Assembly: GCA_023374045.1 (NCBI GenBank)
Contig: CM041782.1
Coordinates: forward strand, 247,409,882-247,473,881
Direction: 5' to 3'
Length of the DNA stretch: 64,000 nucleotides
From: Limonium bicolor
Taxonomy: Eukaryota > Streptophyta > Magnoliopsida > Caryophyllales > Plumbaginaceae
The notes under the pieces are model-generated. The model was not told where the DNA came from, did no database searches, and saw only the letters and a list, made by a program, of their open reading frames with translations. This document shows, piece by piece, positions 3,293 to 31,672 of this stretch. Both the position numbers and the translations under genes were made by a program. Position 1 is the stretch's first letter. Each line of letters starts with the position of its first letter.

Positions 3293-3413
3293 GCCGACCT
3301 ACCCAGGGGACCGACCCCAGTCTGGGTCGGTCGGGCTAAAACTGTGAACTTGGATGCTCTCTGCAGCCGACCTACCCAGGGGGTGGATCGGTCGGTGGGT
3401 CGGTCGGACCTTA
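3293..3413. repeat. GC-rich palindrome island in E1 5' LTR
   Basis: A short island in AT-rich surroundings made of CCGACC and GGTCGG repeats, including two copies of GCAGCCGACCTACCCAGG about 70 bp apart with inverse GGTCGGTCGG partners, so it can fold into several alternative hairpins. The matching copy in the 3' LTR is at about 28052-28171. Confidence 0.75.
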
Positions 3414-5027: not shown

Positions 5028-5083
5028 CAGCAAAGGTGCTGAGCCCCTTGGGGGCCACCCTTTCTCTTCTTTTCCTATTTCAG
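5028..5083 (+). promoter_or_regulatory. Tandem hairpins and pyrimidine tract ending in CAG (E1)
   Basis: Stem-loop 1 is CAGCA-AAGG-TGCTG (5028-5041), directly followed by a CCCC/GGGG stem (5043-5056), then a pyrimidine tract ending in CAG at 5081-5083. E2 (15131-15179) and E5 (57125-57168, minus strand) have the same order, with different loop bases. It resembles a 3' splice site next to structured RNA; function not shown. Confidence 0.5.
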
Positions 5084-5443
5084 GTACAAAGAGCAGGAAG
5101 CCGTTCGAGAGTAGGATGGGGTAGTCGTTGTACATGGGTAATCATTTAAGTTGTATATGTACAGTAGGTGTAGTAAGACTGAGATTGTTATCGGCATCAG
5201 TTTGTGAATACTCGGTACAGTTGAAAGGTGTATGTTGTTGTTGTGTTAATGGAAAGGGATAGTAATGCGTAGTCGCTCGGGAGTCTAGTCCATCAGACCG
5301 GTACAATTGTATATGTAATAGCCTTGTTAGCCACGTGGGTGGTTAACGGCGTGTAACACCAACGAGTAAGTAATGTGGTGAAGTATAATTTCCGCTGCAG
5401 ATTGTTGTTATGTGTTGGTTGTTGGATGGGGTGTTACAAAAAG

Positions 5444-10319: not shown

Positions 10320-10332
10320 AAGGGGGGTAGAT
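10320..10332 (+). other. E1 terminal polypurine tract
   Basis: AAGGGGGGTAGAT abuts the first base of the 3' LTR (10333), the position expected for the primer of plus-strand DNA synthesis. Confidence 0.85.
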
Positions 10333-11799
10333 TGAAATACCCCAAACCTTGATATATTGTTTAAATACTAAACTATGGTATGTAAAGGCTAAAAAGTGCC
10401 TTAGAAACATCAGTGAACAATATAAACCATAGTAAAATGCAATAAAGCACTAAGATACAGTTTGAGCAAAAACATGCTCTAAGCTAGGAGTGAACTTGGA
10501 TAGGACCCAAAGAGCCTACCAAGACTTAATAAAATTCAATTATGATTTAATAAGGCTAATTAAGTCCTTAGGAAACTTTGGTAGACAGTTAAACCAAACA
10601 AAACACAAGAAAATACCTTAAAGTCAATAAGAGCAAAAATGTGCTCTAAGCTTGGAAAAAATTTGTATAAGACCTAATGGTCATACTTACACCTTATAAA
10701 TATGTTAATGAACATATTAAACCAATTACCAAAGAAAACCAAGCTTGAAAACAAGTTAAATTTGTAAATGAGTTTTGAATGGCTAAATGTCCATCATTAC
10801 TCTTTAATTAACATATGTACTACTTAGTATCACATTTGGAGGTCTAAATCAATGGGAAATCAAAAATTTCACAAGAATGTGCCTTGTTTTTGTGAATAGT
10901 AACAAAAAAATGCTAGTTTATGACATAAGTCAATATAAGTAAGTTAATTGGTCAACAAACACCATGACTTGGCCTAAAACATTAAGGGGCCGGTTTTTCA
11001 TGTGTGACTCACCACACTTGACCAATCAAAATAAACAAGAAAAGTAATAAAGCAAGGTTACTATTTACTTTAAGTATAAATATCTCCAAAAGTAAGCTTC
11101 CTCCTCATTTCCTTCCTTCCTTCTCATTTCACACGGTCTTCAATCTTCTCCTCCCTTCTTCTTCGGTGATGCTACAGCACAAACACCATCTTCAAGCTTT
11201 GAACCTTTATATCTCCTAGCTCCCTTTGCCAAATCAAAAACTAAGAACACCATCCTCTTAGTTTAGTCAAGCTCTACAATCTTGTCTATTCAAATCTTCA
11301 AAAGCCTCATTTCGGTGCCATGGAGTTCCACCATTGAAGGAGCTTGAGCTTATATTTCTACATATTATTGATCTCCTTTGCTTCTAGGTAAGGAATCTCA
11401 AAGAAAAATAATGTTTCCTCCATGTTTTTATCATGACCGGAAATCACCTTTGATGGTGCTCATTATATTGCTTTGTTCTAGCTTCATTCCAACCTTTCAA
11501 GGACTAGGTGGAGTCTTCTCTTGATAGATATTCAAACTCTCTTCAAATACCAAGGTAAAACAATTACCTTAATGTGTTAAGACAATATATGTGCCTAGGG
11601 TTTACAATGAGATGAAGCATAATGCTTGAATACTCATTCTATTATTGTACATTGTTTAGTAGTTGACAAACAACCAAACAACCTTACCGGTTTTACAAGG
11701 AAACAAGAAAGAAGTTTGTGAGGAAAAAGAGGTAAACAAACTATCTCAATGTAGTTTAAATGCCTTAGGAAAATGAGCTTGATTTCCTTAATGAAATAC
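10333..11799 (+). repeat. E1 3' LTR, first part (before E2)
   Basis: First 1467 bp of the 3' LTR, matching the 5' LTR with few substitutions. Compared with the 5' LTR it lacks about 57 bp at about 10759, a deletion that removes the conserved 15-bp hairpin. It ends with the E2 TSD AATAC (11795-11799) and resumes at 27336. Confidence 0.88.
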
Positions 11800-13884
11800 T
11801 GAAATACTCCAAACCTAGTTATGTTGTTTAAACATTTAAATATGGTATATTAAGACTAAAAAGAGTCTTAGAAGCATTAGTAAGCAATTTAAACAATAGA
11901 AAACACAAAATGTGCTTTAAGGTCAATAAAGGCCAAAATGTGCTCTAAGCTTGGGATAAGCTTGGTTAAGACCTAATGAACTTACCAAGACCTTATTTAT
12001 ATACTAATGAACATATTAAACCAATTACCAAAGAAAACCAAGCTTGAAAACAAGTTAAAACACAAAATGTGCTTTAAGGAGTCTTAAAGCACATTTTCGA
12101 ATAATTGTCTTGTAAATGAGTTTTGAATGGCTAAATGTCCATCATTACTCTTTAATTAACATTTGTACTATATAGTATCACATTTGGAAGTCTATATCAA
12201 TGGAAAATAAAAAATTTCACTTCTATGTGCCTTGTTTTTATGAATAGTGATTTTAATAAGCTAGTTTGTAACATATGTTTGCATAAGTAATTAAATTGAC
12301 AAATAAAGACTATAATACCCCTAAGTACTATTGGGGGCCGGTTTTCTTAAGTGTGGTGACTCACCACTCTCTTGTTAACATGTTAAGTAAATAAATATGA
12401 CTAACTAAAGTACTTTTTACTTTATAACTACAAATATCTTCTAAAAGCAAGTTTATCTTCATTTCTCCTTTCTTCCTTGCATTCCCACGGTTCCAAGCTC
12501 TCTTCAACCTCTCTTCTTCCTCTCTTTCACGGTAATACCACACCACCACCATTAAACTCCATCTTTGATCTCTTGTAACTTCTAGCTCACTTAACCAAAT
12601 CAAAAACAAACACCACCATTCTCTTAGTCTCATCAAGCTCTTCATTCCTATCTTCTCAAAGCTTCAAGATCACCATTTCGGTGCCATGGAGTTCCACCAT
12701 TAATGGAGCTTGAGCTTATATTTCTACATATTATTGATCTCCTTTGCTTCTAGGTAAGGAATCTCAAATAAAAACTTTATTTCCTCCATGTTTTGTTGTT
12801 GACCGAAAATGCCCATTGAAGGTGCTCTTTATATGGCTTTGTTTTAGCTTCATTCCAACCTTTCAAGGACTAGGTGGAGTCCTCTCTTGATAGATATTCA
12901 AACTCTCTTCAAAGACCAAGGTAAAACAACTACATTAATGTTTTTAAAATAATGTAAACCTAGGGTTTACAATGAGATGAAGCATTAAGCTTGTATACTC
13001 ATTACATTGCTTGTATATTGTTTAGTAGTTGACAAGGAATCAAGTACCTAGCCGATTTTAAACAAGAGAGAAGTTTGTGTGAAAAGAGGTAAACATGCTA
13101 ACCTAATGTGTTTAATGCCTTAGGAGAAATGAGCTTATAATGCTTGTTAAAACTACCTAAAGAGCAAATGGTAAATGACCTAGTGAGATGTTCTCAAGGA
13201 GACTCGTAAAAGGACATATGTGTTGTTGTATGTATTTGCAGGTCAAAGGCATATATATTATGGAAATTCAGTGTTTAAGAGTTATGCACTTTAAGGGCCT
13301 AAGAGCCATGCATTTTAAGGGCCTAAGTGCCATGCAATTTAAATTATGCACTATATTGTAATGTAGTGTGATTTGGGTGAAACTTTGTGTGTGAGAGTGT
13401 TCTTAGTGAATTTAGGTGTTCTTGTGTGCTTAATGGATAAAACAAAGTGTTTTGGCTTAGTAATGTTCTAGGAGAATCCATGTCAAAATTTAGGTAAGAA
13501 GCAAGAAGTTCTAAGTGTTTACATAAGGTTTGGTGAACTAGAAATGTTGGAAGTGCTTAAGTATTTTACAAGAGAAAATATGTCTTAAGGTGTTCTAGGT
13601 AAACAAAGGGACTTAGACATCAACTAGGGTTTAAGTGGTGAGAAATGATGCTTGGGAGATGATGTTAAAATGAGGAGAAAGCATTTTGGGATAGTAGTTA
13701 TCATAGGTGTTAGGAATTTTGGTATGAAATGAGTAAGTGTTTAAGGTGATAGATAATGAGTTTCATGGATGTTGTATGTGGATGTAAGTGTAGCAAATGA
13801 TGTTAGAAAATATTATAAGTGTTAGAGGTTTGGGGGGGAATTGGTTAAGTATTTAAAGGCTTAGAAAATGAGTGTTTTGCCTTG

Positions 13885-14135
13885 TCCGAACATCCGTCCG
13901 GACATGGACGTTCGGACAGGCCTGTTGCGTAAAAAATTTTCAGAGTCTCGACTTGTGTCCGACCTTGGGAGGTCTGGACACAAGTTCGGACGTGCCTGCT
14001 TCTACTTTGAAATTCTCTCGACCCATGTCCGAACTTCCGAAGTCCGGACACAAGTTCGGACAGGCGTCTGTTTTCAGTTTTGAGTCTCGACTTGTGTCCG
14101 AACTTGGGAAGTCCGGACACAAATTCGGACAGGCC
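13885..14135. repeat. GTCCG/CGGAC palindrome island in E2 5' LTR
   Basis: Repeated units of the form TGTCCGAACTT...AAGTCCGGACACAAGTTCGGACA spaced by about 70-80 bp, so every unit is an inverted repeat. The symmetry creates open frames on both strands with similar peptides, which are artefacts. The 3' LTR copy is at about 25668-25920. Confidence 0.75.
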
Positions 14136-15130
14136 ACTGTATGGACCAAAAACTTTGTTTTAAAGAAGAGAAAGTTGTCTAAAAATGGTGATTAGTTAGT
14201 AATGATGATATGAGGTTAATTAAGACATGTTAGGAGTGTTATAATGGCAATTAAAATGGTGAAGAGTTATAACAAGTGTGAAAATAAAATAAAATAGATA
14301 TGTGAAGTAACAAGTTAACAATGGACTAGTGCGTTAATTAACCGACGTTACTAATGTGTTTAGGATTCTCTCAAGGTGGAAACCAGTCGAAGCAAGGACC
14401 AAGGTATGGTTTTCTTGCAGTCTGTTGCCTACCGGTTTACACCGGCTTGTGTGTTGTTTGTTTTTCTGTGTGTTTATGACCTTGTAAGATTAAACCATGT
14501 AAAGAGTTTACAGTTGTTAAATATTATTATGTTGTTAAGTATGACTCTCTCTTCCCTTGTGTGTGTCTAACAAGACTCGACCTATATTTGTGAATTGTGT
14601 ATTGGGTTCATTAATGAACTACTAACAAGTGCTAACGGGGGAAGTGAGGAGTCTGGTCTGTTCCGGCCACGTGTGTGAGTATAGGAGTCGATGTCATAAC
14701 CGGTTCGATTCTCTTTGTATGTTATGGTTGTTTTCCAATTTGGTTTCCAACCTTCCCTTTAGCTTAACCAAGGGTATTTTACTGACTCACGTCGGGCCAC
14801 AAGGGCATACTATGTGTTATTTCGGTGTGCTTGGATCACTATATCCGAGGCACCTTGTGTTAAGTTATCCGTTCAATCTAACAGGACGGAAACGAGTTAT
14901 GTAACGAGCTTAGCATGAGCATGGCAACATTCTCTATGCTCTCTATGGGGACTAACTGTGTTGGTTCTCTTCCTAAAAGGAATTGTTCTTGTGTGATGTG
15001 TGTGATGTTGTGTACAATACCCATGTTATGATATATGCATAAGTTGTGTATTTTAAAATGAATGCCATGTCATCATGACAAATAGTTGCGCGCATCCCGG
15101 TAGCCGATGGGCTGCGCGTTAACCATACCA

Positions 15131-15179
15131 GCCAAGGGTTGCTGACCCCCTCGGGGGCTCCATATTTCTTTTACTGCAG
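15131..15179 (+). promoter_or_regulatory. Hairpin and 3' splice-like site (E2)
   Basis: An ACCCCC-TC-GGGGG stem at 15144-15156 is followed by a T-rich tract and CAG (15177-15179). Same arrangement as E1 (5028-5083) and E5. Confidence 0.45.
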
Positions 15180-15552
15180 GATGAGGATCGAAGAAGCGGA
15201 ATGGCTTTAGATTCTAGGATGCAGGTTTACTTTTGATTACTTTTGGATGTTGGGCCCGGGATGCGCCTGTGCTCCCGTGGCCTTATATATTTTGGTTGTG
15301 AACAGTTTACAGTGACAGTATACAGTAAAGGATGTAAGTAAACACTCGGTATTATGTTAATGTATATATGGTTATTAGTTCTATGCTCGGGAGTCTGATC
15401 ATCAGACCGGTACACTTGTATTTATTCAGCCTTGTTAACCACGTGGGTGGTTGACGGCGTTGTAGCACCAATCGTTTAGTTACTGTTTAGTTGTTTAAAT
15501 TCTGCTGCGATTTCAAGTAATGTTATATGGGTAATAGGGGTGTTACAAAAAG

Positions 15553-15579
15553 TGGTATCAGAGCGAAGTATCGCTCTGA
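15553..15579 (+). promoter_or_regulatory. E2 primer-binding site with hairpin
   Basis: TGGTATCAGAGC at 15553-15564, 5 bp after the LTR, matches initiator-Met tRNA. The overlapping stem ATCAGAGCGA/TCGCTCTGAT with loop AGTA is as in E1. Confidence 0.88.
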
Positions 15580-16439
15580 TGACTAGAATACCGAGCTTAG
15601 GAATCTACCGAGTTAGGAAACCTAACTACAGTTACCTAAGTGAACAGTTATGGAAAGGTTAACCACTAACTAAGTGTGGAGATACCTTATTATCGGGAAG
15701 CGTTACAACCGTTGGACCGATAAGTGTGCAAGCATGTTGCTAATGAATGTTCATGTGAATTCAGATGTCAGGTCGACCGAGAGGTAGAGGCCGTGGACAC
15801 GGTACTGGAGATACGGATGACCATGGAGAGAATACTACGGCCCAGGTTATGGCCGAAGCTGTAGTGGCCGCCGTAGCTCAAATGGTCCCACAACTTGTAG
15901 CTGCGATTCAGCAGGGGCAACAGCCCGGAGTTCAACCACCACCGCCACCGCCACGAGAGAACAACTGGGTCAAGGCGTTGGCTGATCTGAGGCCACTATC
16001 ATTCAGTGGGGAGACCGACCCTCGTAAGCTGGAGGCATACATCTCCGAGATGGAGACTGCCTTCGAGACCTTAGCGGTACCTGATGAGGTCAAGGTTCGA
16101 CTTGCCGCATACTATTTGAAGGGTTCGGCATAGAGCTGGTGGAAGCTAGTATGGGAGGGCAGAGTTGCTGACCCGACCTTTCAGTGGAGGGAGTACACGG
16201 CTCTGCTGCGAGCCAAGTACTACCCGATACACGTGCAAGAGGCCAAGCGCCTGGAGTTGGACAATCTGAGGCAAGGGGATAAGATGACGGTAGATGAGTA
16301 CTACTCAGCCTTCATCGGACTTATCCACCTGCTACCGGATCTGGGTTACTCAGACCGGATTCTTGTGAACCGTTTCTACAACGGACTGAGCTACCGCCTA
16401 CGCTATGGCATGGGGCCAACTGGATATACTACTTTGCAG

Positions 16440-16534
16440 GTAATGGGACTACAGTGTGATGTGAATAAGTATGTACAATGTGTTAATGTGATGTGAATTT
16501 ATTTGGCGGGGCATAACTGACACCCTAAATATAG
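16440..16534 (+). other. Predicted intron 1 of E2 gag
   Basis: 95 bp, GTAATG donor after CAG and ATATAG acceptor. Without removal the frame ends at 16494-16496. With removal, gag continues in phase 0 into a segment with typical gag character (YHAAAIVEITVRLRDEE). Confidence 0.6.
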
Positions 16535-16790: not shown

Positions 16791-16872
16791 GTAATTAACA
16801 AATTTCCATACCGAAATCTAGTGTGTGTTATTAACTTGTGAAGTATGTACTGAGTGTGTGATGTGTTAGCAG
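16791..16872 (+). other. Predicted intron 2 of E2 gag
   Basis: 82 bp, GTAATT donor and TTAGCAG acceptor, phase 1. Its removal joins the Pro/Tyr/Lys end of exon 2 to the zinc-knuckle exon in frame. Confidence 0.6.
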
Positions 16873-17214
16873 CTAGCACGGGCTCTAGACCGGAGCGCCA
16901 CTATTACTGCAAGTGGTGTAACGGAGACCACCCCGGCAAGGACTGCAAGGGTAATGATGTGCAGTGCCGATACTGCAAGAAGATGGGGCACCACGACTAT
17001 GAGTGCTGGCAGAACCCGAACAGTAGAAACTACAGGCCCAAGGGGCAATGGAAGGGTAAGGCCACTGCGACCACCGATGGCCCGAAGACGGCGAATCAGC
17101 CACCCCCAGATCAGAGGTACACAGATTCCCAGAAGGGGAAGGGGTCGGGGTCCGGCAAGGCCGCCCTGAATGTGGTGGACTGGTCTGAAGCGCCAGGGCC
17201 CTCTTCTAGACCAG

Positions 17215-18281
17215 GTACCGCCTAAACTATTGAGTGAAATAAGTGTTTGCATACCGCATTTCATGCATGTGTGTTAGTGAGTTTAAGTAAACAACCATGT
17301 GAGTAAACAATTAAAGAATAGTGTGAAAGTCACCTAATTAGGTAATTCTAAACTTAAAGGAACCTTCAATATATGTTATCCAATCCTACCCACACCAAAC
17401 CCTGAAGAAACTACCATCGACATCACCGACTTTCCAATGGAGCAATGTCAGGTCATCCAACCAGGTATGGTACTCTTAAATGGATACCTGACACCGGAAG
17501 CACAAATCCATATCATCAGATGATGTGATGAACTTAGAGCAAAACCTAGAGGTTTCTACACACCCGAATACCCAAATGGATCAAGAATGCAACTGAAGAT
17601 GATGTGCATGGGTAAGGACTGGAACCCTTACACCAAGACATATCAAGAAGTGCGAGCTGAAGACGGAGCAACAGTACCAAGTATACCTGAGGAGTTCCTT
17701 GCGGTCGTTAACCACGCCGTGGGAATTGCTCAACAAGTTGAAAAGGATTCAATTCCAAATGTGAAAGCAGATCTATGCATTGTGAACTTCTACCAGAAAG
17801 GTGGACGGTTAGGTTTACACCAAGACAAGGACGAGTCACCCAAGTCTCTAAGTAAGGGAGTACCCGTGGTGTCTTGGTCCATTGGTGATACCGCAGTGTT
17901 TGTGTATGGTGAGCAGAAGCATGCTGATCTCGCAAAGAAGCTAGTGTTGAAATCAGGAGACGTGTTAATCATGGGTGGGCAGTCAAGGATGCTATATCAT
18001 GGCATCAAAAAGATCAAACTGAATACCGCGCCGTCGGCAGTGATCAATGCCACACACATGAAACCCGGACGTTTGAATTTGACCTTCAGACAGTTTTAAG
18101 CCTTGTATAAATATGTGATGTGATAAACTAGTGTATGACAAGAATGTTGTAAGTGTTAATCATGGCGACAGTATGAGCCAACGAATGTTGTAAAAAGAGT
18201 GTGTTAATGAATAAAGTGGAGTTGTTTGAAGTATGTCAACCGTGTTGTTACCGAATACTTATTAATTTGCCAATGAATTAG
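17215..18281 (+). other. Predicted intron 3 of E2, containing the AlkB frame
   Basis: Donor CAG|GTACCG at 17214/17215; acceptor AATTAG|G at 18281/18282. Removal joins the last gag codon phase (one leftover base) to pol in frame. A second acceptor AATTAG|G at 17341/17342 opens the AlkB frame in the same phase, so either AlkB or pol could be spliced to gag. AlkB ends with TAA at 18097-18099. The piece 18100-18281 is AT-rich and contains ACTTATTAAT, a fair branch-point candidate. Confidence 0.55.
17342..18099 (+). CDS. AlkB-type 2-oxoglutarate/Fe(II) dioxygenase inside the retrotransposon
   Basis: Predicted nucleic-acid demethylase: AlkB proteins oxidise N-methyl groups on DNA or RNA bases using Fe(II) and 2-oxoglutarate. 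Seen: frame open from the acceptor AATTAG|G at 17342, with PGMVLLNGYLTPEAQIHII, GFYTPEYPNGSRMQLKMMC, GKDWNP, then NFY, the iron ligands of LHQDKDES (H and D, about 17818-17826), LKSGDVLIMGG, the distal His of MLYHGI (about 17998) and RLNLTFRQF, the R-x5-R 2-oxoglutarate motif. The stretch from ATG 17587 (170 codons) holds the complete catalytic core; a TGA at 17521-17523 interrupts the N-terminal part. Family knowledge: GKDWNP...LHQDKDES...RLNLTFRQ(Y/F) is the plant ALKBH1-like type. Intron-free here, which suggests capture as cDNA. It lies between the gag zinc knuckles and protease, same strand. Activity and substrate unknown. Confidence 0.88.
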
Positions 18282-20460
18282 GCTGTGCACTCGGAACGGG
18301 AGGTATACTGAGTGTCTGCAATGAGGCAGAAGCCGGCAGGAGCGGCATAATCCTCACCGGTACCTTTCCAGTCAATGGCGTGGACGCTTCGATCTTGTTC
18401 GACTCCGGAGCCTCTCATACATTTATTTCGCTATCCTTTGCGAAGAGGCTGGGGTTAGACGGTGATGAGATGCCAGACTTCCTAGTCACTCTCCCGTCGA
18501 AAGAGCGGATCAGGTGTACCCGCTACCACCAAGATGTTGTTGTGAGAATCAGAGGTGAAGAGTTTCCGATCGACTTGATAGAGTTTGACGGACTCGGTTT
18601 TGATGTGATTGTTGGGATGAACTGGTTGGAGCGGTACAAGGGCAGAATCCTGTGTGCCGAGCATCGTCTGCTTCTTCGGAGTCCATCTGGGGTTACCATA
18701 TCTTACCGCCAGAGGCCCAGGGAGCCTTCGACTCAGATCATCACCGCCATGGCTATGTATCGTGAACTACGACGAGGGAGTGATGTATACCTCTGCTATG
18801 TCCAGGACATAGAGAGAGATCCAGAGTTTAGTCCTGATGTGTCGGTAGTGTCGGAGTTTCCTGATGTATTTCCTAAGGAACTGCCGGGCATGCCGCCAGC
18901 ACGGGAAGTGGAGTTTGAGATTGATTTGGTTCCGGGCACCGGACCAATTGCGAAGGCGCCCTATCATATGGCTCCAGCAGAGATGACTGAGCTCAAGGAG
19001 CAGCTGAGAGACTTACTCGACAAGGGGTTTATCCGCCCTAGTGTTTCACCATGGGGAGCGCCGGTCCTCTTCGTGAAGAAGAAGGACGGTAGCCTCCGCC
19101 TGTGTATTGACTATCGAGAGCTGAATGCAGTTACGGTGAAGAACCGTTACCCTTTACCACGCATCGACGATCTATTTGATCAGTTGAGGGGAGCATCAGT
19201 ATTCTCCAAGATAGATCTACGATCCGGATACCATCAGATTGCCATCCGTGACAGTGATATCGAAAAGACAGCATTCAGAACTAGGTATGGGCATTATGAG
19301 TTTACAGTTATGCCGTTTGGGTTATCCAATGCACCCGCTAAGTTCATGGACTTAATGAACCGCTTGTTCCAAGATCAGTTGGACAAGTCAGTGGTAGTCT
19401 TCATCGATGATATTCTTATGTACTCAAAATTGAGAGGTGATCATGAAAGCCACCTGAGAAATGTGTTACAAACATTGAGGAAGAATCAGTTATATGCTAA
19501 ATTTTCAAAGTGTGAATTCTGGCTGAACCAAGTATCCTTTCTTGGTCATGTGATTTATGAGGTCGGGATCGCTGTTGATCCGGCAAAGATTGATGCAGTG
19601 CGCACCTGGCCTAGGCCGAAGACAGTTACCGATATCAGGAGCTTCCTCGGTCTGGCAGGTTATTATAGGAGGTTTGTGAAGGACTTCTCCAGTGTCTCGA
19701 AGCCGATGACTTCCTTGATGAAAAAGGATGCACCATTCGAGTGGACAGTCGACTGTGAGAGTTTTTCAGAGTCTCAAGGATGCTCTGACATCTGCACCGG
19801 TCCTGACTTTACCAGACGGTCCAGATGGTTTTGAGGTCTATTGCGACACATCAGGCAGAGGTATGGGTTGGTGTTGATGCAACACGGGAAGGTCGTAGCT
19901 TACGCCTCCCGACAGCTGAAAAAGCATGAAGAGAACTACCCTACCCACGACTTAGAATTGCGGGCCATTGTCTTCGCACTGAAGATATGGCAACATCACT
20001 TGTATGGGGTAAGTGTGACGATTTATTCTGACCACAAGAGTTTAAGGTACTTGTTCACTCAGAAGGAGTTGAACATGAGACAAAGAAGGTGGGTTGAATT
20101 TCTGAATGACTACGACATTAATCTGCAATATAAGGAGGGTAAGGCAAATGTGGTAGCTGACGCACTGAGTCGCCGAGCACACTCTCTCCATTCGCTAGTC
20201 TCTCATTCTAGCTTGGTTGAAGAGGTGCGGAGTGCTCAGATGATGGATCAGTATATGATGGAGATTAGACAGAAGCTTATTGATGGCACATTCGAGGGTC
20301 AGAAGTACGACTTCAGACTCCACGATGATGACCTGATTAGGCTTAATGGCCGATTGTGTATACCGAGGAGTAGCGTAGATTTGAAGGAGCGCATATTGAG
20401 TGAATCCCATTGTTCTACTACTTCGATTCACCCCGGAGCTTCAAAGATGTATAAAGATAG
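18282..20460 (+). pseudogene. pol: E2 pol: protease, reverse transcriptase, RNase H
   Basis: Aspartic protease motif [10 protein letters not shown] (about 18398), then a Ty3/gypsy reverse transcriptase: [51 protein letters not shown] and the catalytic [12 protein letters not shown] (about 19393-19428), a thumb with FLGHV, and RNase H with [28 protein letters not shown] and [10 protein letters not shown], ending in [13 protein letters not shown] single extra T in the T-run 19762-19766 and one missing G near 19868-19871 shift and restore the frame; a third shift occurs near 20446-20500. Usual start is by splicing at 18282; no good ATG precedes the protease. Typical of the chromovirus branch. 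Confidence 0.93.
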
Positions 20461-21064
20461 AAAGATATTTTTGGGACTGGAATGAAAAAGATGTGAATGA
20501 CTATGTGTTGAGGTGTCTCACTTGTCAGAAGGTCAAGTTTGAGCACCGAGGCCGGTGGTGGTATGGTACAGCCAATGCCAGTGCCTGAGTGGAAGTTCCA
20601 TGACATTTCTATGGACTTCGTAGTAGGGCTTCCGCCTGCAAGGGGAGGTCTGAATATGATTTGGGTTGTTGTTGACCGACTGACCAAGGTGGCCCGATTC
20701 ATTCCGATGAAGGACACTTGGAAAGTGGCAAAATTGGCAGAACTCTTCGACAGAGAGATTGTAAGACACCATGGGGTACCGAAAATGATTGTATCTGACA
20801 GAGATACCAGATTCTTATCGAGATATTGGAAGTCTACACGAGAAGCATTGGGTACCAAACTGAAATTGAGTATTGCGTTTCACCCACAGACCGATGGTCA
20901 GAGTGAGCGCACCATCCAGACACTTGAGGATATGTTACGTGCATGTGCACTTGACTTTCAGACCAGCTGGATTGACAAGTTACATCTGATCGAGTTTAGC
21001 TACAACAACAGTTACCATGCTTCGATCAAGATGTCTCCCTTCCAGGCATTATACGGTAGACCAT
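20461..21064 (+). pseudogene. int: E2 integrase: zinc-binding and DDE catalytic core
   Basis: The HHCC zinc-binding part straddles a frameshift: [18 protein letters not shown] lies just upstream and VLRCLTCQKVKF downstream. From about 20539 the core is open, with the DDE residues in DISMDFVVGLP, IVSDRDTRF and the E of RTIQTLEDMLRAC. It ends at the conserved ALYGRP, where the family-4 solo LTR was inserted (TSD ACCAT 21060-21064). A further frameshift lies near 20545-20560. Integrase inserts the cDNA into chromatin. Confidence 0.92.
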
Positions 21065-22654
21065 TGATAAGTGTCCAAATGAGCATGATTTATAGGTGTA
21101 TTTCATATATAATATTAGCACTTTTCTTGCTCATTTCTCCACTTCGGTTAGTTTTCCTCTAGTTTATGTTTTATTGTTTATCTCACAAATTTATTGGTTT
21201 AACATGAGGAAAACCAAGCTGGGAGTAAAGTAGATTAAGAGACAAACGCATTGACGCAAACGGCTCAGAAAACGGACTTATAACGAAGAATGTAGAGCCG
21301 GTCAAAAGAGTCACGCGAGAGTCACGCGGTGGACTGGTGCAACCGCCCCTAAGTGGCGGACGTCACACGGACAACCGCCAGGCGGACAGGGCTGAGGCAA
21401 CCGCCTCTTAACGGGCGGTTAAGGAGGCGGACGAGGCACAAGCAACCGCCTCGCGGTCAACATAGAGGCTACCGCCTCTAAACTCGCGGTCACCACACAG
21501 GCAACCGCCTCGAGGTCAACATAGAGGCTACCGCCTCTTAATCTCGCGGACAACACAGGAGTTACCGCCACTTAGCAGGCGGACACCAATAACCGTGACT
21601 AATTATCAGTCGCGACCAGTATCTTCTTCGCGCCGTCGTCGTCTGCAACTCGCCCGACTCGCCCGCAACTTATCCATCTACTCCGCACGCGTATTCAGTC
21701 TGTTCCCTGCGCAATCAATGAAGCAATCAATGCTCTTCTTCATCTGCAATCAAATTTGTACGGATCCAAACCTCTATATAAACCCACCACCTTAACTGCA
21801 TAAAGACACACCACGCACGACGGGAGTCTGAAGAAACCATTCACCACACTCACCCATTCGCTTCCACTTATATTTCCTCCCGTATCACCACATCGTTCCA
21901 CACTCACGCAGTAACAAAAGAAATAGAAGAACAGCAGTGAGAGCGAGAACAGACCAGTTCTTCCTCTGAATTAATGTCAAAATCTATCTGTGTAATCTTC
22001 TTATCTCCGTTAATGTCTGAGTAATTTTCTTTTGTATCCTAGGATGGGGGTTTGATTTCTAATATTACGTAATTAATATTTATCACCTGTTTCTCTCATT
22101 TAATTTTTTAATTCCTTTCAACTAATATTGCTAAATGCTTTGCGCGACAAACGACTGCATTTATTTGGTAATTATCAACATATGATTTTGAGATAGTCTA
22201 GGTACCACAAAGGAATTAATCTTAGTATTACACTCCGGACTGAGCAGGAAAATATTAAGGCTTTTATTAAGAGTTCGTAACTGACAATTATTAACTCTAA
22301 TAGGCAATAAATAATTGAGACATGGTTATAAATATGGTTAAGTAATTTAGGAAATTCCCCCGCTATCCTAGGATACATTTTTCCATTCACATCACTTAAT
22401 TCACCTTTTAACTGTTTTTATTATTTCTGTATTAATTTAACAACAAATCAAGCTTGCCTCCGGCTAAACCCCTTTTTACAGTTTTTAAGTAACTACCAAG
22501 GCTAGGGTAAATTGAACAATCTCCCTGTGGATACGACACTCGTTATACTACTACGACCGGGATTTGTTTGCAGCCCGACGTTTATAATTTGAGTTTTTAA
22601 TTTCCTTTCTTTTAATTTTACACCATTTCAACCACTCAGAAATAACAGTCTGCA
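21065..22654 (+). mobile_element. Family-4 solo LTR inside E2 integrase
   Basis: 1590 bp from TGATAAGTGTCC to ACAGTCTGCA, with perfect TSD ACCAT at 21060-21064 and 22655-22659. No internal region or second LTR, so it is a solo LTR left by recombination. It is the opposite-strand relative of the LTR at 1-1031/36267-36764. It contains a GC-rich CCGCC/GGCGG palindrome island (about 21250-21590), a TATATAAA box (about 21775) and CTCCCTGTGGATACGAC (about 22521), the latter typical of Athila/Tat-like U5 regions. A small frame at 21595-21795 is not a gene. Confidence 0.9.
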
Positions 22655-23249
22655 ACCATGCCGCACACCATTATGCTGGGATGAGTCGAGTGAGACGGTC
22701 ATTATAGGACCAGAGTATCTGGAACAAGTTCAGGCAGAAGTTCGCCAGATCCGGGCTAACATGAAGACAGCTCAGGATAGACAGAAGTCGTACGCAGATG
22801 TGCGCAGACGTGACCTGGAGTTCACCGTGGGCGATCAGGTATTTTTGAGAGTATCCCCCATGAAGGGAGTGTTTCGTTTTGGCCAGAAAGGCAAGTTGAG
22901 CCCAAAATATGTGGGGCCATATGTTGTGACGGAGCAGATCGGCCCGGTAGCCTACAGACTTGATTTACCCGCCGAGCTGGGCAAGGTACATGATGTATTT
23001 CATGTGTCCCAGTTGAAGAAGTATATGTCTCATCCGTCTCATGTGCTTCAGCCTGAAAGGCTAACCTTAGAGCCGACCATGCGATCAGTGGAGACTCCAG
23101 TACGGATTCTGGATACTAAGACTCGAGACACTCGCCATAAGTCTGTGAGACTGGTGAAAGTTCTTTGGTCTAACCAGGACGTTGAGGAGGCCACTTGGGA
23201 GCTGGAAGATAAGATGAAGGCGAAGTACCCGTCATTGTTTACTTCTTAG
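22655..23249 (+). pseudogene. int: E2 integrase C-terminus with GPY/F module and chromodomain
   Basis: Continuation of the integrase after the solo LTR, resuming within the same codon context (TPLCWDE). It contains VRQIRANMKTAQDRQKSYAD, GDQVFLRVSP, the GPY/F module in KLSPKYVGPYVV, and HDVFHVSQLKKY. The last about 50 residues (TPVRILDTKTRD, VRLVKVLW, EEATWELEDKM) form a group II-like chromodomain, which in chromoviruses can target integration to histone-marked heterochromatin. Stop at 23247-23249. This part is undamaged. Confidence 0.9.
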
Positions 23250-23581
23250 TGTTTGTATGTATAGGGTACGGGGTGTACCCCTATTTAAGGGGGGTAGAGC
23301 CATTTCGGTTATATGAGTACGACGTGTATTTAAATACATCGTCTATGTTATGTTGTCATATTACAGACCGTTGTGCCTGAATGATGTGGATGATGTTGTA
23401 TGGATCTTGTGTCCAATGTTATGTACCCGATGTTATGTTGTACGGACCTTGTGTCCAATGTTATGTAAGTGTGTTGTTAATATAATTATGGAAGTATTGT
23501 TTATATGTATTCCCGTGTTCTAACGTTAGGATATGAGGAAGTGTGAACCTTGAGGACAAAGTTCTTTTAAGGGGGGTAGAT
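23250..23581 (+). other. E2 3' untranslated region with two polypurine tracts
   Basis: About 330 bp without coding. An internal copy TTTAAGGGGGGTAGAG stands at 23284-23298 just after the stop; the terminal tract TTTTAAGGGGGGTAGAT is at 23565-23581, abutting the 3' LTR. Between them is a short repeat of TTGTGTCCAATGTTATG. Confidence 0.8.
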
Positions 23582-26500
23582 TGAAATACCCCAAACCTAG
23601 TTATGTTGTTTAAACATTTAAATATGGTATATTAAGACTAAAAAGAGTCTTAGAAGCATTAGTAAGCAATTTAAACAATAGAAAACACAAAATGTGCTTT
23701 AAGGTCAATAATGGCCACAATGTGCGCTAAGCTTGGGATAAGCTTGGTTAAGACCTAATGAACTTACGAAGACCTTATTTATATACTAATGAACATATTA
23801 AACCAATTACCAAAGAAAACCAAGCTTGAAAACAAGTTAAAACACAAAATGTGCTTTAAGGAGTCTTAAAGCACATTTTCGAAAAATTGTCTTGTAATGA
23901 GTTTTGAATGGCTAAATGTCCATCATTACTATTTAATTAACATGTGTACTATATAGTATCACATTTGGAAGTCTATATCAATGGGAAATCAAAAATTTCA
24001 CTTCTATGTGCCTGGTTTTTATGAATAGTGATTTTAATAAGCTAGTTTGTAACATATGTTTGTATAAGTAATCAAATTGACAAATAAAGACTATAATACC
24101 CCTAAGTACTATTGGGGTCCGGTTTTCTTAAGTGTGGTGACTCACCACTCTCTTGTTAACATGTTAAGTAAATAAAATGACTAACTAAAGTACTTTTTAC
24201 TTTATAACTACAAATATCTTCTAAAAGCAAGTTTATCTTCATTTCTCCTTTCTTCCTTGCATTCCCACGGTTCCAAGCTCTCTTCAACCTCTCTTCTTCC
24301 TCTCTTTCACGGTAATACCACACCACCACCATTAAACTCCATCTTTGATCTCTTGTAACTTCTAGCTCACTTAACCAAATCAAAAACAAACACCACCATT
24401 CTCTTAGTCTCATCAAGCTCTTCATTCCTATCTTCTCAAAGCTTCAAGATCACCATTTCGGTGCCATGGAGTTCCACCATTGATGGAGCTTGAGCTTATA
24501 TTTCTACATATTATTGATCTCCTTTGCTTCTAGGTAAGGAATCTCAAATAAAAACTTCATTTCCTCCATGTTTTGTTGTTGACCGAAAATGCCCATTGAA
24601 GGTGCTCTTTATATGGCTTTGTTTTAGCTTCATTCAAACCTTTCAAGGACTAGGTGGAGTCCTCTCTTGATAGATATTCAAACTCTCTTCAAAGACCAAG
24701 GTAAAACAACTACATTAATGTTTTTGAAATAATGTAAACCTAGGGTTTACAATGAGATGAAGCATTATGCGTGTATACTCATTACATTGCTTGTATATTG
24801 TTTAGTAGTTGACAAGGAATCAAGTACCTAGCCGATTTTAAACAAGAGAGAAGCTTGTGTGAAAAGAGGTAAACATGCTAACCTAATGTGTTTAATGCCT
24901 TAGGAGAAATGAGCTTATAATGCTTGTTAAAACTACCTATAGAGCAAATGGTAAATGACCTAGTGAGATGTTCTCAAGGAGACTAGTAAAAGGACATATG
25001 TGTTGTTGTATGTATTTGCAGGTCAAAGGCATATATATTGTGGAAATTCAGTGTTTAAGAGTTATGCACTTTAAGGGCCTAAGAGCCATGCATTTTAAGG
25101 GCCTAAGTGCCATGCAATTTAAATTATGCACTATATTGTAATGTAGTGTGATTTGGGTGAAACTTTGTGTGTGAGAGTGTTCTTGGTGAATTTAGGTGTT
25201 CTTGTGTGCTTAATGGAGAAAACAAAGTGTTTTGGCTTAGTAATGTTCTAGGAGAATCCATGTCAAAATTTAGGTAAGAAGCAAGAAGTTCTAAGTGTTT
25301 ACATAAGGTTTGGTGAACTAGAAATGTTGGAAGTGCTTAAGTATTTTACAAGAGGAGAAATAATGTCTTAAGGTGTTCTAGGTAAACAAAGGGACTTAGA
25401 CATCAACTAGGGTTTAAGTGGTGAGAAATGATGCTTGGGAGATGATGTTAAAATGAGGAGAAAGCATTTTGGGATAGTAGTTATCATAGGTGTTAGGAAT
25501 TTCGGTATGAAATGAGTAAGTGTTTAAGGTGATAGATAATGAGTTTCATGGATGTTGTATGTGGATGTAAGTGTAGCAAATGATGTTAGAAAATATTATA
25601 AGTGTTAGAGTTTTGGGGGGGAATTGGTTAAGTATTTAAAGGCTTAGAAAATGAGTGTTTTGCCTTGTCTGAACATCCGTCCGGACATGGACGTTCGGAC
25701 AGGCCTGTTGCGTAAAAAATTTTCAGAGTCTCGACTTGTGTCCGACCTTGGGAAGTCCGGACACAAGTTCGGACGTGCCTGCTTCTACTTTGAAATTCTC
25801 TCGACCCATGTCCGAACTTCCGAAGTCCAGACACAAGTTCGGACAGGCGTCTGTTTTCAGTTTTGAGTCTCGACTTGTGTCCGAACTTGGGAAGTCCGGA
25901 CACAAGTTCGGACAGGCCACTGTATGGACCAAAAAATTTGTTTTAAAGAAGAGAAAGTTGTCTAAAAATGGGGATTAGTTAGTAATGATGATATGAGGTT
26001 AATTAAGACATGTTAGGAGTGTTATAATGGCAATTAAAATGGTGAAGAGTTATAACAAGTGTGAAAATAAAATAAAATAGATATGTGAAGTAACAAGTTA
26101 ACAATGGACTAGTGCGTTAATTAACCGACGTTACTAATGTGTTTAGGATTCTCTCAAGGTGGAAACCAGTCGAAGCAAGGGCCAAGGTATGGTTTTCTTG
26201 CAGTCTGTTGCCTACCGGTTTACACCGGCTTGTGTGTTGTTTGTTTTTCTGTGTGTTTATGACCTTGTAAGATTAAACCATGTAAAGAGTTTACAGTTGT
26301 TAAATATTATTATGTTGTTAAGTATGACTCTCTCTTCCCTTGTGTGTGTCTAACAAGACTCGACCTATATTTGTGAATTGTGTATTGGGTTCATTAATGA
26401 ACTGCTAACAAGTGCTAACGGGGGAAGTGAGGAGTCCAGTCTGTTCCGGCCACGCGTGTGAGTATGGGAGTCGATGTCATAACCGGTTCGATTCTCTTTG

Positions 26501-27330
26501 TACGTTATGGTTGTTTTCCAATTCGGTTTCCAACCTTCCCTTTAGCTTAACCAAGGCTATTTTACTGACTCACATCGGGCCACAGGGGCATACTATGTGT
26601 TATTTCGGTGTGCTTGGATCACTATATCCGAGGCACCTTGTGTTAAGTTATCCGTTCAATCAAACAGGATGGAAACGAGTTATGTAACGAGCTTAGCATG
26701 AGCATGGCAACATTCTCTAGGCTCTCTATGGGGACTAACTGTGTTGGTTCTCTTCCTAAAAGGAATTGTTCTTGTGTGATGTGTGTGATGTTGTGTACAA
26801 TACCCATGTTATGATATATGTATAAGTTATGTGTTTTAAAATGAATGCCATGTCATCATGACAAATAGTTGCGCGCATCCCGGTAGCCGATGGGCTGCGC
26901 GTTCACCATACCAGCCAAGGGTTGCTGACCCCCTCGGGGGCTCCATATTTCTTTTACTGCAGGATGAGGATCGAAGAAGCGGAATGGCTTTAGATTCTAG
27001 GATGCAGGTTTACTTTTGATTACTTTTGGATGTTGGGCCCGGGATGCGCCTGTGCTCCCGTGGCGTTATATATTTTGGTTGTGAACAGTTTACAGTGACA
27101 GTATACAGTAAAGGATGTAAGTAAACACTCGGTATTATGTTAATGTATATATGGTTATTAGTTCTATGCTCGGGAGTCTGATCATCAGACCGGTACACTT
27201 GTATTTATTCAGCCTTGTTAACCACGTGGGTGGTTGACGGCGTTGTAGCACCAATCGTTTAGTTACTGTTTAGTTGTTTAAATTCTGCTGCGATTTTAAG
27301 TAATGTTATGTGCGTAATAGGGGTGTTACA
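23582..27330 (+). repeat. E2 3' LTR
   Basis: 3749 bp, only sparse differences from the 5' LTR over its length. Hairpin 23846-23879, GC island about 25668-25920, tandem hairpin and CAG about 26915-26962. Followed by TSD AATAC (27331-27335). Confidence 0.9.
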
Positions 27331-27335
27331 AATAC

Positions 27336-30186
27336 CTAAGGAGCCAATGGTAAATGAGCTAGTGAAATGCTCTCAAGGAGTTTATTAAGGGCATATGTAT
27401 TGTTGGTCGTATTTACAGGTCAAAGGCATTATTTATATGGGAAATTCAGTGTTTAAGGTTCTTGCAATTTAAGGGCCTAAGTGCCAAGCATTTTAAGTTT
27501 ATGCACTATATTGTGATGTAGTGTAAAATTTGGTGTATGTTGTGTGTGAGAATACTCTTGATGGATTTTAGGTGTTCTTGAAAGAAATAAGGTAAAAACC
27601 TAAGTGTTTGGATGTGAGAATATACAAGAGAAGCTATGGCAAAATTTGGAAAATGTTAAGAAGTTCTAAGTGTTTTAAATAAGTTTTGGTGAACTAGGAA
27701 GTGTTAAAGGTGAACAAGTGTTTTACTAGGGAAGAAAACATGTACTAAGGCGATTTAGAGTGATACAAGGATTTAGGTATTATCTTGGGAGTTCTAGGAA
27801 TTCAATGTGTGTTTTTGAGAATGTTGATGTACAAGGAAGGAATGATGTTTAGGTAAGATGTCAAAAAGGAGAAAACATTCCAAGTGCTAGGAATTTTGTA
27901 AGAAATCTGTGAATGATAAAATGGTTTTGGTGTGTGATTTAAAGAGTTTAGTACATGGCTAAAGGTGTGTTTGATGTGCCAAATGATGTTAGAACACATT
28001 AGAGGCTTGAGGAAAAATTTGGAGAAAGTTGACAATGTATGGGAAGTTTTGCAGCCGACCTACCCAGGGGACCGACCCCAGTCTGGGTCGGTCGGGCTAA
28101 AACTGTGAACTTGGATGCTCTCTGCAGCCGACCTACCCAGGGGGTGGATCGGTCGGTGGGTCGGTCGGACCTTAAAAAAAATATATTAATTTTAAGAATG
28201 TTAAGTGGTATTAGTGGTATGCCATTAAGAGAGTATTGATGGTTAGAAAGATAAATATATATGGACTTGAGAGATTAAGTTAAGTAAGATGATTTAATGT
28301 TAAGGTTATAAAATGATATGTAATGATGGGGATGATTAGTAATGATGTTATAAGGTTGTTTAAGACATGTTAGGTGAGTTATAGGACAATTAAGTAGGTG
28401 GAAAGTTGGAGAAAAATGTGAAATGTAAAACAAGTTAAAAATGTGAAGTTATTTAACTAGTTAACAGGGTTAACTATGAGCTTTAGACTTTAAACAATCA
28501 TGTTACCCCGATGTAGCCGGTTAATGAAGTAATTGTAATAATATACCAGTTGTTCGAGAATTGCTCGGGGAAACATAAGTGGACATGATAAGTGGACTCC
28601 GGTGACAGGTATGGTTTTCTTGCAACCTGTTGTCCTACGGATTACATCGGCTTGATGCCAAATGTTTTTCTGTATGTTTGCCACGTTATAAGATAAATCA
28701 TGAACGAGTTTACAGTCGTTATTGTTGTGTATGTTTACGTGCCGATACGTAACCTCGAATGCGCTTGAAGGGCTAGTTAACCACTATTAGGGTAAACGTA
28801 AGAGAACGGTATCCGGTGATAACGTTTCCGACTAAGGAACGTTTAACCACGACTATGCGTGATTAGTTATGTGATGTTTGTGTGTGATGTTGTGTGTGAA
28901 TGTCTGACTCTCCCTTCCTTGTGTGTGCTAACAAGACTTAACCCAATGTTGTGATGTTTAAATTAAGTTCAATGTGAACTTCAACAAGTATACGAGGGAA
29001 GTGCAGGAGTCCGGTCTGTTCGGCACGCGTGTGAGTATGGGGGTCGTGTCATATCAGGTTCGATCCTCTCTGTATGTTATGGTTGTTTCCAATTCGGTTT
29101 CCAACCTTCCCTTTAGCTTAACCAAGGCTATTTTACTGACTCACGTGCGGGCCACAGGGGCATACTATGTTATGTTGTTCGGTGTGCTTGGATCACTATA
29201 TCCGAGACACCTTGTGTAAGTTATCCGTTCATTTAACTGAGACGGTAACGAGTTATGTAATGAGCTGATCATGAGTCTGGCAACATTCTCTAGGCTACAA
29301 GTGAACTGACTATGTTTGGGCCGGTTCATAAAAGGGAACCGTACCCGTTACGTTATGTATGTGTTATGATGCAATATCTATTGCGGATGTTATATTATGT
29401 GCACGTTGAAACGTGGGAAAATGTTTGTTATGTGTTGTTATGTGATGAATGTTAAATGTTGTAAATGTGGAGTATGGGGATCATGGATATGAATCCCAGT
29501 TGTGATAGAGGCAATAAGATAACCCGATTAATGGGAAGTGTCATCTATTAAGGAAGTAGCTCCATTAGAGGAGAACACCCTAGGGGTAATGAATACCATG
29601 AGTGACTTATCAAGTAAGGATGTGTCATCTGTTGGTTGAGCCCACTGAGGCGAAAGTTGGTTGTGTGTTTGCTGTGTGTTTATAGTTGTGTAGATTTAAA
29701 TATAATCAACCGCATGCTAAGACGACAATAGTTGTGCGTGGCCCGGGTAGCATGCGGGCTGCGGGATTACCATACCAGCAAAGGTGCTGAGCCCCTTGGG
29801 GGCCACCCTTTCTCTTCTTTTCCTATTTCAGGTACAAAGAGCAGGAAGCCATTCGAGAGTAGGACGGGGTAGTCGTTGTACATGGGTAATCATTTAAGTT
29901 GTATATGTACAGTAGGTGTAGTAAGACCGAGATTGTTATCGGCATCAGTTTGTGAATACTCGGTACAGTTGAAAGGTGTATGTTGTTGTTGTGTTAATGG
30001 AAAGGGATAGTAATGTGTAGTCGCTCGGGAGTCTAGTCCATCAGACCGGTACAATTGTATATGTAATAGCCTTGTTAGCCACGTGGGTGGTTAACGGCGT
30101 GTAACACCAACGAGTAAGTAATGTGATGAAGTATAATTTCCGCTGCAGATTGTTGTTATGTGTTGGTTGTTGGATGGGGTGTTACA
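27336..30186 (+). repeat. E1 3' LTR, second part
   Basis: Resumes the E1 LTR after the E2 TSD. Compared with the 5' LTR, one about 28-bp repeat unit of GGGCCTAAG is missing near 27475. The stretch about 28490-29750 differs from the 5' LTR by many single-base indels and few substitutions, whereas the flanks match almost perfectly. Ends GGGGTGTTACA, then TSD TCTCT (30187-30191). Confidence 0.88.
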
Positions 30187-30210: not shown

Positions 30211-31672
30211 TATTAGCAGAAATATATGACTATCTCTACCTAGGCAGTGTACCTATCGTTTTGCGGAATAGTGAATTGAGTGGGGTTGTCGATCTCAGGG
30301 ACCTCGTTCAATTAACTGACAATTTATTTACTAACCGAGAAAACTAAACTAACAAAACAGGAAATGTCACTTTTTTTTCAGGTTTTACTTAATTTAATAA
30401 AAAGAATGACTAAACAAACTAACATAAAATAATGAAACAGTAAAAAGATAAAAATAAACTAAATAAAGAAATAAAGATTGAATCTAAAGAAGCACCCCGG
30501 ATTGTTCTGCAAACCTTCACTTTATTAATCTATCAATAAACTCTTCCCTAATTCTGCAATAAACTCAAGAATTATAAATAGTTCGTTGACCGGTCCCTGT
30601 ACAACGAACCCTAACTAACTGAAATAACAAGCCGCAAACCATGCCCAAGTTATCAAGTTAATAGCATTAAACACAATTCCTATTGAAGACAGATTAACCT
30701 ATAGGCAAACCATGCTTCTAGTCGTTAATCCGGTTTAACTTCCTATGTCTTGTTAACTAATCTCAGCGCCGCATTTTGATTAGAAAACTAATATTGCTTT
30801 AATAATTAGCTAGAGAATTAAAGCGCATGAAGAACAGGAATTAAACTATTGTAATTATAATCAGAGAAAAAGATTACAAAATAACTATAAAGATCCGTTT
30901 TACTACCCCAACCCGGGGAGCTAAACTAACTACGCTAACATGACTATAAACATAACAAAAACAACAAAGGAATAACACATTGAACAGATTAGATAAAAAG
31001 GGAAGAAAAAAACTCTGTTTGAAGAACTTCACTCCGCCTTCCGTCATCATGTGTCTCTGCATTAATCCTCTGCTAGAAGTGTGGGTGTAACAATGACAAG
31101 TTGGTATGATGGTGGTGGTGTGAGATTGAACTACTGGTACGATGAAGATGATGATGGTGGCGTTCTGTTGAGTTCGAAGAGAATTCAGAGGCGCAGGCCT
31201 CTGGCCTCTCGTGGGGCGCCCCTGTATGGTCGAACCCTAACTTGTTTATGTACGCAGCGGCGATAGAAAATAAATTTATCTTCAATCCTTCTCTTCATTA
31301 GTCACGTGCAGACTAATATAGTTTTCCTGAATATAAACAAGAGTAACGTAAATATTAATCCATGACATGCAACCGACAATATTTATCACATTCATAATCA
31401 CGTGTGGCTGTTATTAATACAAAAGAGAATGCGTGAGATTTGAAGTCCACGTGAATAACTTTTGTGAAAGTATAATAATGACGATGAAAGTGATATTAAA
31501 ATAATGGTGTTGACTTTACAATGAATATCGTAATTTGACACATAAAATGTATCAATTGACATCAAAACATAAATCTAAGGGAAAACATATGATAAGTGAG
31601 AAATACGACATGAATTGTTATGAAAATAGGAAGAATTGAAACCCTAAAAATAGATGTATTTCGCACCTATCA
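30211..31672 (-). repeat. E3 3' LTR (left copy)
   Basis: 1462 bp. In element orientation it starts TGATAGGTGCG and carries GGTCCCTGAGATCGACA near its end, a U5-like motif comparable to family 4. It holds an AGGCCTCTGGCCTC palindromic tract near 31195. Small frames here (30874-31285) are not conserved genes. Confidence 0.87.

Follow-up and report, generated by a model that had tools for sequence, protein, structure and literature searches.

An ALKBH1-type AlkB exon in the gag-pol intron of a Limonium chromovirus family, probably expressed as an alternatively spliced Gag fusion

The window, a stretch of 64,000 nucleotides of Limonium bicolor DNA (contig CM041782.1 of assembly GCA_023374045.1, forward-strand positions 247,409,882 to 247,473,881), contains a Ty3/gypsy chromovirus with definable ends: two long terminal repeats (LTRs) flanked by AATAC duplications. 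The assembly totals 2.92 Gb in 2,686 contigs, eight of which measure 136-540 Mb; a matK fragment taken from it shows 96% identity to the cluster of Limonium carolinianum, 93% to a further Limonium cluster, and 79% to Plumbago. Between the zinc knuckles of its gag region and its protease lies an exon for an AlkB-type dioxygenase. This position had been recognized in a preliminary description made from the letters alone; the exon is, however, not a plain insert between two open reading frames (ORFs) but part of a spliceable intron (17215-18281), and neither the introns nor a Gag-AlkB fusion through alternative splicing had been noticed there. In this family, the ALKBH1-type AlkB probably provides gag with an alternative 3'-terminal exon, with three products, one of which, a Gag fusion, would bring a putative demethylase into the particle. 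The element is composed of the following features.

11795-11799, no strand: left target-site duplication AATAC; the intact site is visible within the related LTR 1031-5438
11800-15547, plus strand: 5' LTR, TG...CA, with 98.3% identity to 23582-27330 across 3751 columns
15553-15564, plus strand: primer binding site TGGTATCAGAGC, presumably of tRNA-Met type
15765-16439, plus strand: gag exon 1, capsid part (Pfam Ty3_capsid, below cut-off), with a stop at 16131 in the window copy
16440-16534, plus strand: intron I1, GT-AG, 95 bases, phase 0; exactly lost in L061, L064, L065, L070, L072, L027, and L086
16535-16790, plus strand: gag exon 2, with a stop at 16688 in the window copy
16791-16872, plus strand: intron I2, GT-AG, 82 bases, phase 1; exactly lost in L020, L022, L056, L061, L064, L070, L072, L080, L081, and L083-L086
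16873-17214, plus strand: gag exon 3, CCHC zinc knuckles (zf-CCHC_3, below cut-off); ratio of nonsynonymous to synonymous substitution rates (dN/dS) 0.30
17215-18281, plus strand: intron I3, holding the AlkB exon; donor CAG/GTACCG, distal acceptor AATTAG/G, phase 1; exactly lost in 15 places, L061-L075
17215-17359, plus strand: short form of I3, for the Gag-AlkB splice; acceptor AAAG/G, phase 1; missing in 11 places
17223-17225, plus strand: stop codon that would be read if I3 is retained, yielding Gag alone; TAA aligned in 30/30 and 25/30 copies
17360-18099, plus strand: AlkB exon, ALKBH1-like 2-oxoglutarate- and Fe(II)-dependent dioxygenase, with a premature stop at 17521-17523 in the window copy; dN/dS 0.20
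18282-19831, plus strand: start of the pol exon, aspartic protease and reverse transcriptase (RVP_2, 5.9e-22; RVT_1, 5.9e-35)
19841-20485, plus strand: RNase H part of pol (RT_RNaseH, 8.4e-27)
20539-21162, plus strand: integrase core (rve, 5.5e-06, below cut-off), whose frame stops early; the next pol frame runs from 22761
22761-23249, plus strand: integrase C-terminus (SH3_Tf2-1, 5.7e-27) and chromodomain at about 23100-23231 (Chromo, 9.3e-05, below cut-off)
23569-23581, plus strand: polypurine tract, just 5' of the 3' LTR
23582-27330, plus strand: 3' LTR
27331-27335, no strand: right target-site duplication AATAC

Protease, reverse transcriptase (RT), RNase H, and the C-terminal part of the integrase are clear at the Pfam level, while the capsid, zinc knuckle, integrase core, and chromodomain fall below their cut-offs. 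The domain order is that of chromoviruses, i.e., protease, RT, RNase H, and integrase followed by a C-terminal chromodomain, yet the last scores 22.7 bits against a cut-off of 25.1. The element probably belongs to the Tekay clade; we assign this label from familiar motifs and the long LTRs, and the chromodomain and the primer binding site at 15553, which we take to match tRNA-Met, fit it. According to PMC6317226, tRNA-Met primes most chromoviruses. The window copy itself is damaged: gag exons 1 and 2 and the AlkB exon each contain a stop, the frame breaks between RT and RNase H, and the integrase frames are split. The segment 21065-21296 recurs elsewhere in the window.

The AlkB assignment is confirmed, and the preliminary description was right in recognizing a plant ALKBH1-like domain with its catalytic motifs in a chromovirus. 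A weakly matching zinc knuckle precedes the domain, and protease and RT follow it. The segment 17587-18096 matches Pfam PF13532 (2OG-FeII_Oxy_2) at 1e-40 (140.5 bits versus a cut-off of 31.2), and its closest solved structure is rice ALKBH1 (5xeg, 1.2e-52). The frame of about 250 codons proposed earlier at 17342-18099 does code for AlkB, but the actual exon comprises 740 bases (17360-18099) and is interrupted in the window copy by the in-frame stop at 17521-17523, its open part being 170 codons from ATG. The same stop occurs in L003, L004, L076, and L077, by common descent or recurrent mutation.

Residues H78, D80, H138, R162, and R168, corresponding to the HxD...H iron ligands and the RxxxxxR motif for 2-oxoglutarate, are present in the window copy and kept in 28/28 other copies; in all, seven catalytic or cofactor positions are conserved throughout these 28. 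The predicted fold is a double-stranded beta-helix (model pLDDT, the predicted local distance difference test, 91.6, from a 30-row alignment). Compared with solved structures, the model reaches template modeling (TM) scores of 0.94/0.92 with OsALKBH1 (5xeg/5xoi; 48-49% identity), up to 0.79 with E. coli AlkB, and 0.53-0.54 with ALKBH5. As judged from its sequence, the exon thus encodes an AlkB-type dioxygenase, a putative demethylase, and the modeled structure places it with the ALKBH1 type rather than the ALKBH5/9B type.

The exon is not a singular occurrence. A search of the same genome with the AlkB protein gave 46,759 candidates; among the best 150, which were scored, all show 94-100% identity, and 144/150 have no stop in the 170-residue AlkB core. 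The 21-base splice-donor motif of exon 3 is found at 7,031 places with at most two mismatches (reversed pattern: 0), a figure that counts donor motifs, the presence of AlkB being confirmed only in sampled loci. Two samples were drawn, both from this one genome and from copies near the window copy: a first set of 30 loci chosen by AlkB likeness, and a second set chosen through a 700-base stretch of protease/RT DNA, with 40 of 4,887 candidate places scored and 30 loci kept. Gag exon 3, AlkB, and protease/RT occur in identical order in 30/30 loci of the first set, which is more than a chance arrangement, and the AlkB stretch is present in 30/30 copies of the second (one being the window copy, L031, and one, L044, rearranged). 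The whole exon is open in 18/30 loci of the first set. Copies of AlkB or donor motifs recur every 10.1 kb or so at C1:497439589-497469850 and C1:18345765-18386470, a regular spacing that suggests either tandem elements with shared LTRs or a segmental array.

Substitution patterns indicate that AlkB is kept by selection in the element family. By the Nei-Gojobori method, applied to 28 copies of the second set (L031 and L044 omitted), dN/dS is 0.169 in the AlkB core (bootstrap 0.138-0.211), 0.265 in the N-terminal part, and 0.200 over the exon, not near 1. Elsewhere in the element, the values are 0.296 for the zinc-knuckle exon, 0.145 for the protease, and 0.081 for RT, the last two possibly biased low by the choice of copies on DNA likeness there, a choice in which AlkB played no part. 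Frame-shifted controls gave 1.13/1.20 for AlkB overall, 1.36/1.41 for the core, and 0.87/0.93 for the N-terminal part. In the first set, the overall ratio is 0.126, biased by the selection of copies on AlkB likeness. Third codon positions are about 2- to 5-fold more variable than others in the exons, and the introns are without a clear period of three. Copy number and dN/dS together rule out a chance processed pseudogene or single insertion. It is also very improbable that AlkB is a passenger, an exon once captured and since carried along by a successful family with no gain to the element: AlkB-less copies do occur, eight of them within one clade, and the frame is broken in 23/30 copies not chosen by AlkB, but the protease-like dN/dS of 0.17-0.20 contrasts with 0.87-1.41 in the shifted frames, and the seven catalytic or cofactor positions are intact in 28/28.

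How the exon would be reached is suggested by the splice sites. As judged from the reading frames, the zinc-knuckle exon ends at 17214 (CAG/GTACCG) and could join, in phase 1 and in frame, either AlkB at 17360 or the protease at 18282. The donor GT is present in 30/30 first-set and 27/30 second-set copies, the AlkB acceptor AG in 30/30 and 29/30, and the Pol acceptor AG in 29/30 and 30/30, respectively. The model can be tested without RNA: junction patterns derived from it were searched genome-wide as signs of reverse-transcribed spliced RNA, with the reversed pattern as control, and both predicted junction sequences were found.

The Gag/Pol junction pattern occurs at 15 places (control 0), all of them without 17215-18281; I1 and I2 are missing too from L061, L064, L070, and L072, L065 lacks I1 and I3, and ten retain I1 and I2. 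The Gag/AlkB pattern occurs at 12 places (control 0), 11 of which are genuine and lack 17215-17359. The twelfth, L082, is a look-alike match that retains the intron and was rejected as a spliced copy. Among the genuine ones, L086 lacks I1 and I2, and L080, L081, L083, L084, and L085 lack I2, while L076, L077, L078, and L088 retain both introns and L087 retains I2 with a one-base difference at the junction. Closely similar pairs (L076/L077 and L084/L085 in an AlkB tree, and L080/L083 by shared layout) imply that events are fewer than places; the tree in question, limited to the 64 rows in which AlkB exceeded 600 bases, was used loosely, its bootstrap being unsettled. Exact loss of a single intron is seen as well in AlkB-bearing copies, of I1 in L027 and of I2 in L020, L022, and L056; in L020 and L022 the same 82 bases (16791-16872) are missing in unlike sequence backgrounds. 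Each intron of the model, I3 in its short form as well as in full, is thus precisely missing from some copies, and the missing introns are best explained by reverse transcription of spliced RNA. AlkB would accordingly be expressed through alternative splicing as a Gag fusion.

Copies with the Gag/Pol junction could also be read as the ancestral AlkB-less element, into which AlkB and its flanks were inserted later, so that the missing intron would be no sign of splicing. This was examined in a midpoint-rooted protease-RT tree of 69 rows, 55 with AlkB and 14 without (omitted were L074, a short match, and five rows that duplicated elements in the tree). The AlkB-less copies fall into several positions: eight form one clade beside two carriers, three (L067, L062, and L066) split off close to the base, and two (L065 and L075) fall outside the group of AlkB carriers, as an ancestral form might under this root; the retention of I1 and I2 in 10/15 Gag/Pol copies points the same way, and a single clade of all 14 is not rejected (p value of the approximately unbiased test, p-AU, 0.093). 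L064, on the other hand, nests beside an AlkB carrier (99/93) and lacks all three introns, as do L061, L070, and L072; the 11 Gag/AlkB copies cannot be AlkB-less ancestral forms; and the AlkB-bearing copies named above show exact loss of I1 or I2 by itself. Later insertion is therefore an unlikely account of the junctions as a whole, although some Gag/Pol copies may stem from lineages that are older or became AlkB-free secondarily. For the Gag/Pol copies without any of the three introns, and for the Gag/AlkB copies, the best reading is that spliced RNA was copied back into the genome.

On the splicing model, three products would arise from I3. Its retention would yield Gag alone, with three extra codons before the stop at 17223-17225 (GGT ACC GCC TAA), eight bases into the intron; the proximal splice (17214 to 17360) would yield Gag with AlkB at its C-terminus, and the distal one (17214 to 18282) Gag-Pol. 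The Gag part might then bring AlkB into the virus-like particle, where the enzyme could demethylate the genomic RNA or single-stranded cDNA of the element oxidatively, with Fe(II) and 2-oxoglutarate, and removal of the methyl groups might shield the replication intermediate. Such an on-board enzyme for cleaning nucleic acid would find a parallel in the dUTPase of some retroviruses. By analogy, the favored substrate inside the particle is newly made cDNA or the genomic RNA: rice ALKBH1 demethylates N6-methyladenine (6mA) on single-stranded DNA and is required for 6mA removal from R-loops, according to PMC10469495, and such substrates would resemble the cDNA and the RNA-DNA hybrids of reverse transcription. 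A bolder and less probable reading is that alternative splicing arose in the retrotransposon as a way to pack a demethylase into the particle, where it would clear methyl marks or alkyl damage from the genomic RNA and the growing single-stranded cDNA during reverse transcription. The balance of Gag, Gag-AlkB, and Gag-Pol would then be set by retention, proximal use, or distal use of I3. Since a Gag fusion predicts location in the particle, the site of enzyme action becomes directly testable.

A different site of action, somewhat doubtful here, is the cytoplasm, where AlkB might act after translation as an eraser of N6-methyladenosine (m6A) on host or element RNA, as proposed for Phalaenopsis, with the Gag fusion being incidental. 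Its precedents are the orchid AlkB enzyme, reported to demethylate m6A in vitro (PMC9289625), and Arabidopsis ALKBH9B, reported to strip m6A from ONSEN RNA (PMC12786077). Both, however, are of the ALKBH5/9B type, whereas the element AlkB is of the ALKBH1 type by structure and adjoins plant ALKBH1C/D in the protein tree; rice ALKBH1 is described as acting on 6mA in single-stranded DNA and human ALKBH1 on DNA and RNA (PMC10469495). In addition, the splice junction attaches AlkB to Gag instead of leaving it in a separate ORF.

Several observations weigh against a functional Gag-AlkB fusion that acts in the particle. Beside the unrejected clade of AlkB-less copies and the possibly AlkB-free lineages mentioned above, the whole AlkB exon is open in only 7/30 copies of the second set, and its acceptor (AAAG) is, in our estimation, weak in most copies. 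Spliced copies are scarce, with 26 places and fewer events versus 7,031 donor-motif places; most of the Gag/AlkB copies are decayed, and in two, L080 and L083, the AlkB exon is reduced to roughly its first 50 bases. Particle packaging and the substrate are based on analogy. When a Gag-AlkB query was run against the protein database, the 120 listed of 2,587 matches had PF13532 but no zinc-knuckle domain in the precomputed domain column, the only criterion applied, including two (P0144 and P0159) with 88% query coverage.

As to the origin of the exon, the preliminary description envisaged a captured host cDNA. In protein trees of 37 and 53 rows, midpoint-rooted and built without the Limonium host ALKBH1 gene, the element AlkB groups with six database proteins (P0001-P0005 and P0009; support 94/83 and 95/87, respectively). 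In the 53-row tree, this group branches beside, and outside, 41 plant-side ALKBH1C/D rows (92/91) and does not nest within the plant ALKBH1 clade. Because the element AlkB lies outside every plant ALKBH1C/D row sampled, its capture would be either old or followed by fast change, and a recent Limonium origin is not indicated by these trees, which lack the host gene. The FDIC-like start of the exon matches host-type ALKBH1 proteins. P0001 and P0002 (71% and 64% identity) come from contigs of about 26.6 kb, and P0002 has the same FDICY start after a possible intron sequence; AlkB-bearing relatives of the element may thus exist elsewhere. A search of viral contigs for related loci gave 18 pattern matches, of which 0 were confirmed.

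Plant ALKBH1 proteins (OsALKBH1 and ALKBH1C/D) share the fold of the element AlkB (TM 0.92-0.94). ALKBH1D proteins such as P0139 have a longer N-terminus, which the element AlkB lacks; after splicing, Gag would stand in that place.

AlkB in an LTR retrotransposon is already known. Gypsy_Pa_2799 from Phalaenopsis aphrodite (Alvarado-Marchena et al. 2022) is an AlkB-bearing Ogre/Tat element whose ORF is described as active on m6A RNA (PMC9289625). Like the Limonium element, it is a high-copy plant Ty3/gypsy element with a 2-oxoglutarate- and Fe(II)-dependent AlkB and intact HxD...H and RxxxxxR motifs, and its authors propose a benefit to the element (PMC9289625). It differs in its Tat/Ogre lineage, tRNA-Arg primer site, dual RNase H, and ALKBH5-like (9B/10B) AlkB in a separate 565-aa ORF2 (PMC9289625), whereas the Limonium element has a chromodomain, a primer site of tRNA-Met type, and an ALKBH1-like AlkB exon that lies within an intron and joins the gag frame; it does not, therefore, belong to the orchid Ogre-AlkB elements. 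As the enzyme type and the element clade differ, AlkB was likely acquired independently in the two lineages. The Phalaenopsis study reports the AlkB domain in no other plant among 121 assemblies (PMC9289625). The Limonium family would thus constitute a second AlkB-carrying plant LTR-retrotransposon lineage, with another type of enzyme in another clade of elements, and it looks as if elements had come more than once to demethylate their nucleic acid.

Plant RNA viruses keep their AlkB in the replicase polyprotein. In these viruses (Alpha- and Betaflexiviridae, and Closteroviridae), too, the domain resides in a mobile genome, and it is thought to repair or demethylate their own nucleic acid (PMC9289625). 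The use of splicing to balance Gag against Gag-Pol from one transcript is likewise described for Ogre, with its gag-pol intron, and for EVADE and BARE1, which produce a short Gag by splicing (PMC12786077, PMC6317226). The Limonium element would add a third product from the alternative exon in the intron and has two further gag introns; no captured enzyme is mentioned for Ogre, EVADE, or BARE1 in the available portions of these sources. Tekay elements of sunflower and others also bear a conserved extra protein; that of sunflower is described as unlike known domains and is situated 5' of gag-pol, not as an enzyme exon (PMC11728184). No report of AlkB in a chromovirus, or of a Gag-AlkB splice, was found among the open-licence PMC papers that the searches listed. 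What appears unusual is thus the probable mode of expression, with an enzyme exon in the gag-pol intron spliced to Gag.

The window also contains further LTR sequences; Rfam gave 0 matches within the window at the gathering threshold. The AlkB element sits within an LTR of a related element, of which 1031-5438 is the uninterrupted counterpart. This related LTR pair (1031-5438 and 10332-11799 plus 27330-30186, 94-95% identity) encloses the AlkB element, which is inserted in the right-hand LTR. Between the outer pair, no pol-like sequence turned up, the pol of the AlkB element matching only itself (tblastn, 1e-3); the outer element may for this reason be non-autonomous. A second long LTR pair (38224-42112 and 56829-60689, 97.9% identity) encloses about 14.7 kb, in which the sole frame of at least 140 codons is a 276-aa ORF (47288-48118, minus strand), gag-like by eye. 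A young pair (30211-31672 and 34795-36261, 99.5% identity) contains a 369-aa ORF (33089-34198, minus strand) and no other frame of 140 codons; the element at 30211-36261 is perhaps gag-only. Numerous overlapping self-matches with 67-90% identity at 36765-38232 and 61353-62353 suggest old tandem duplications around the LTRs.
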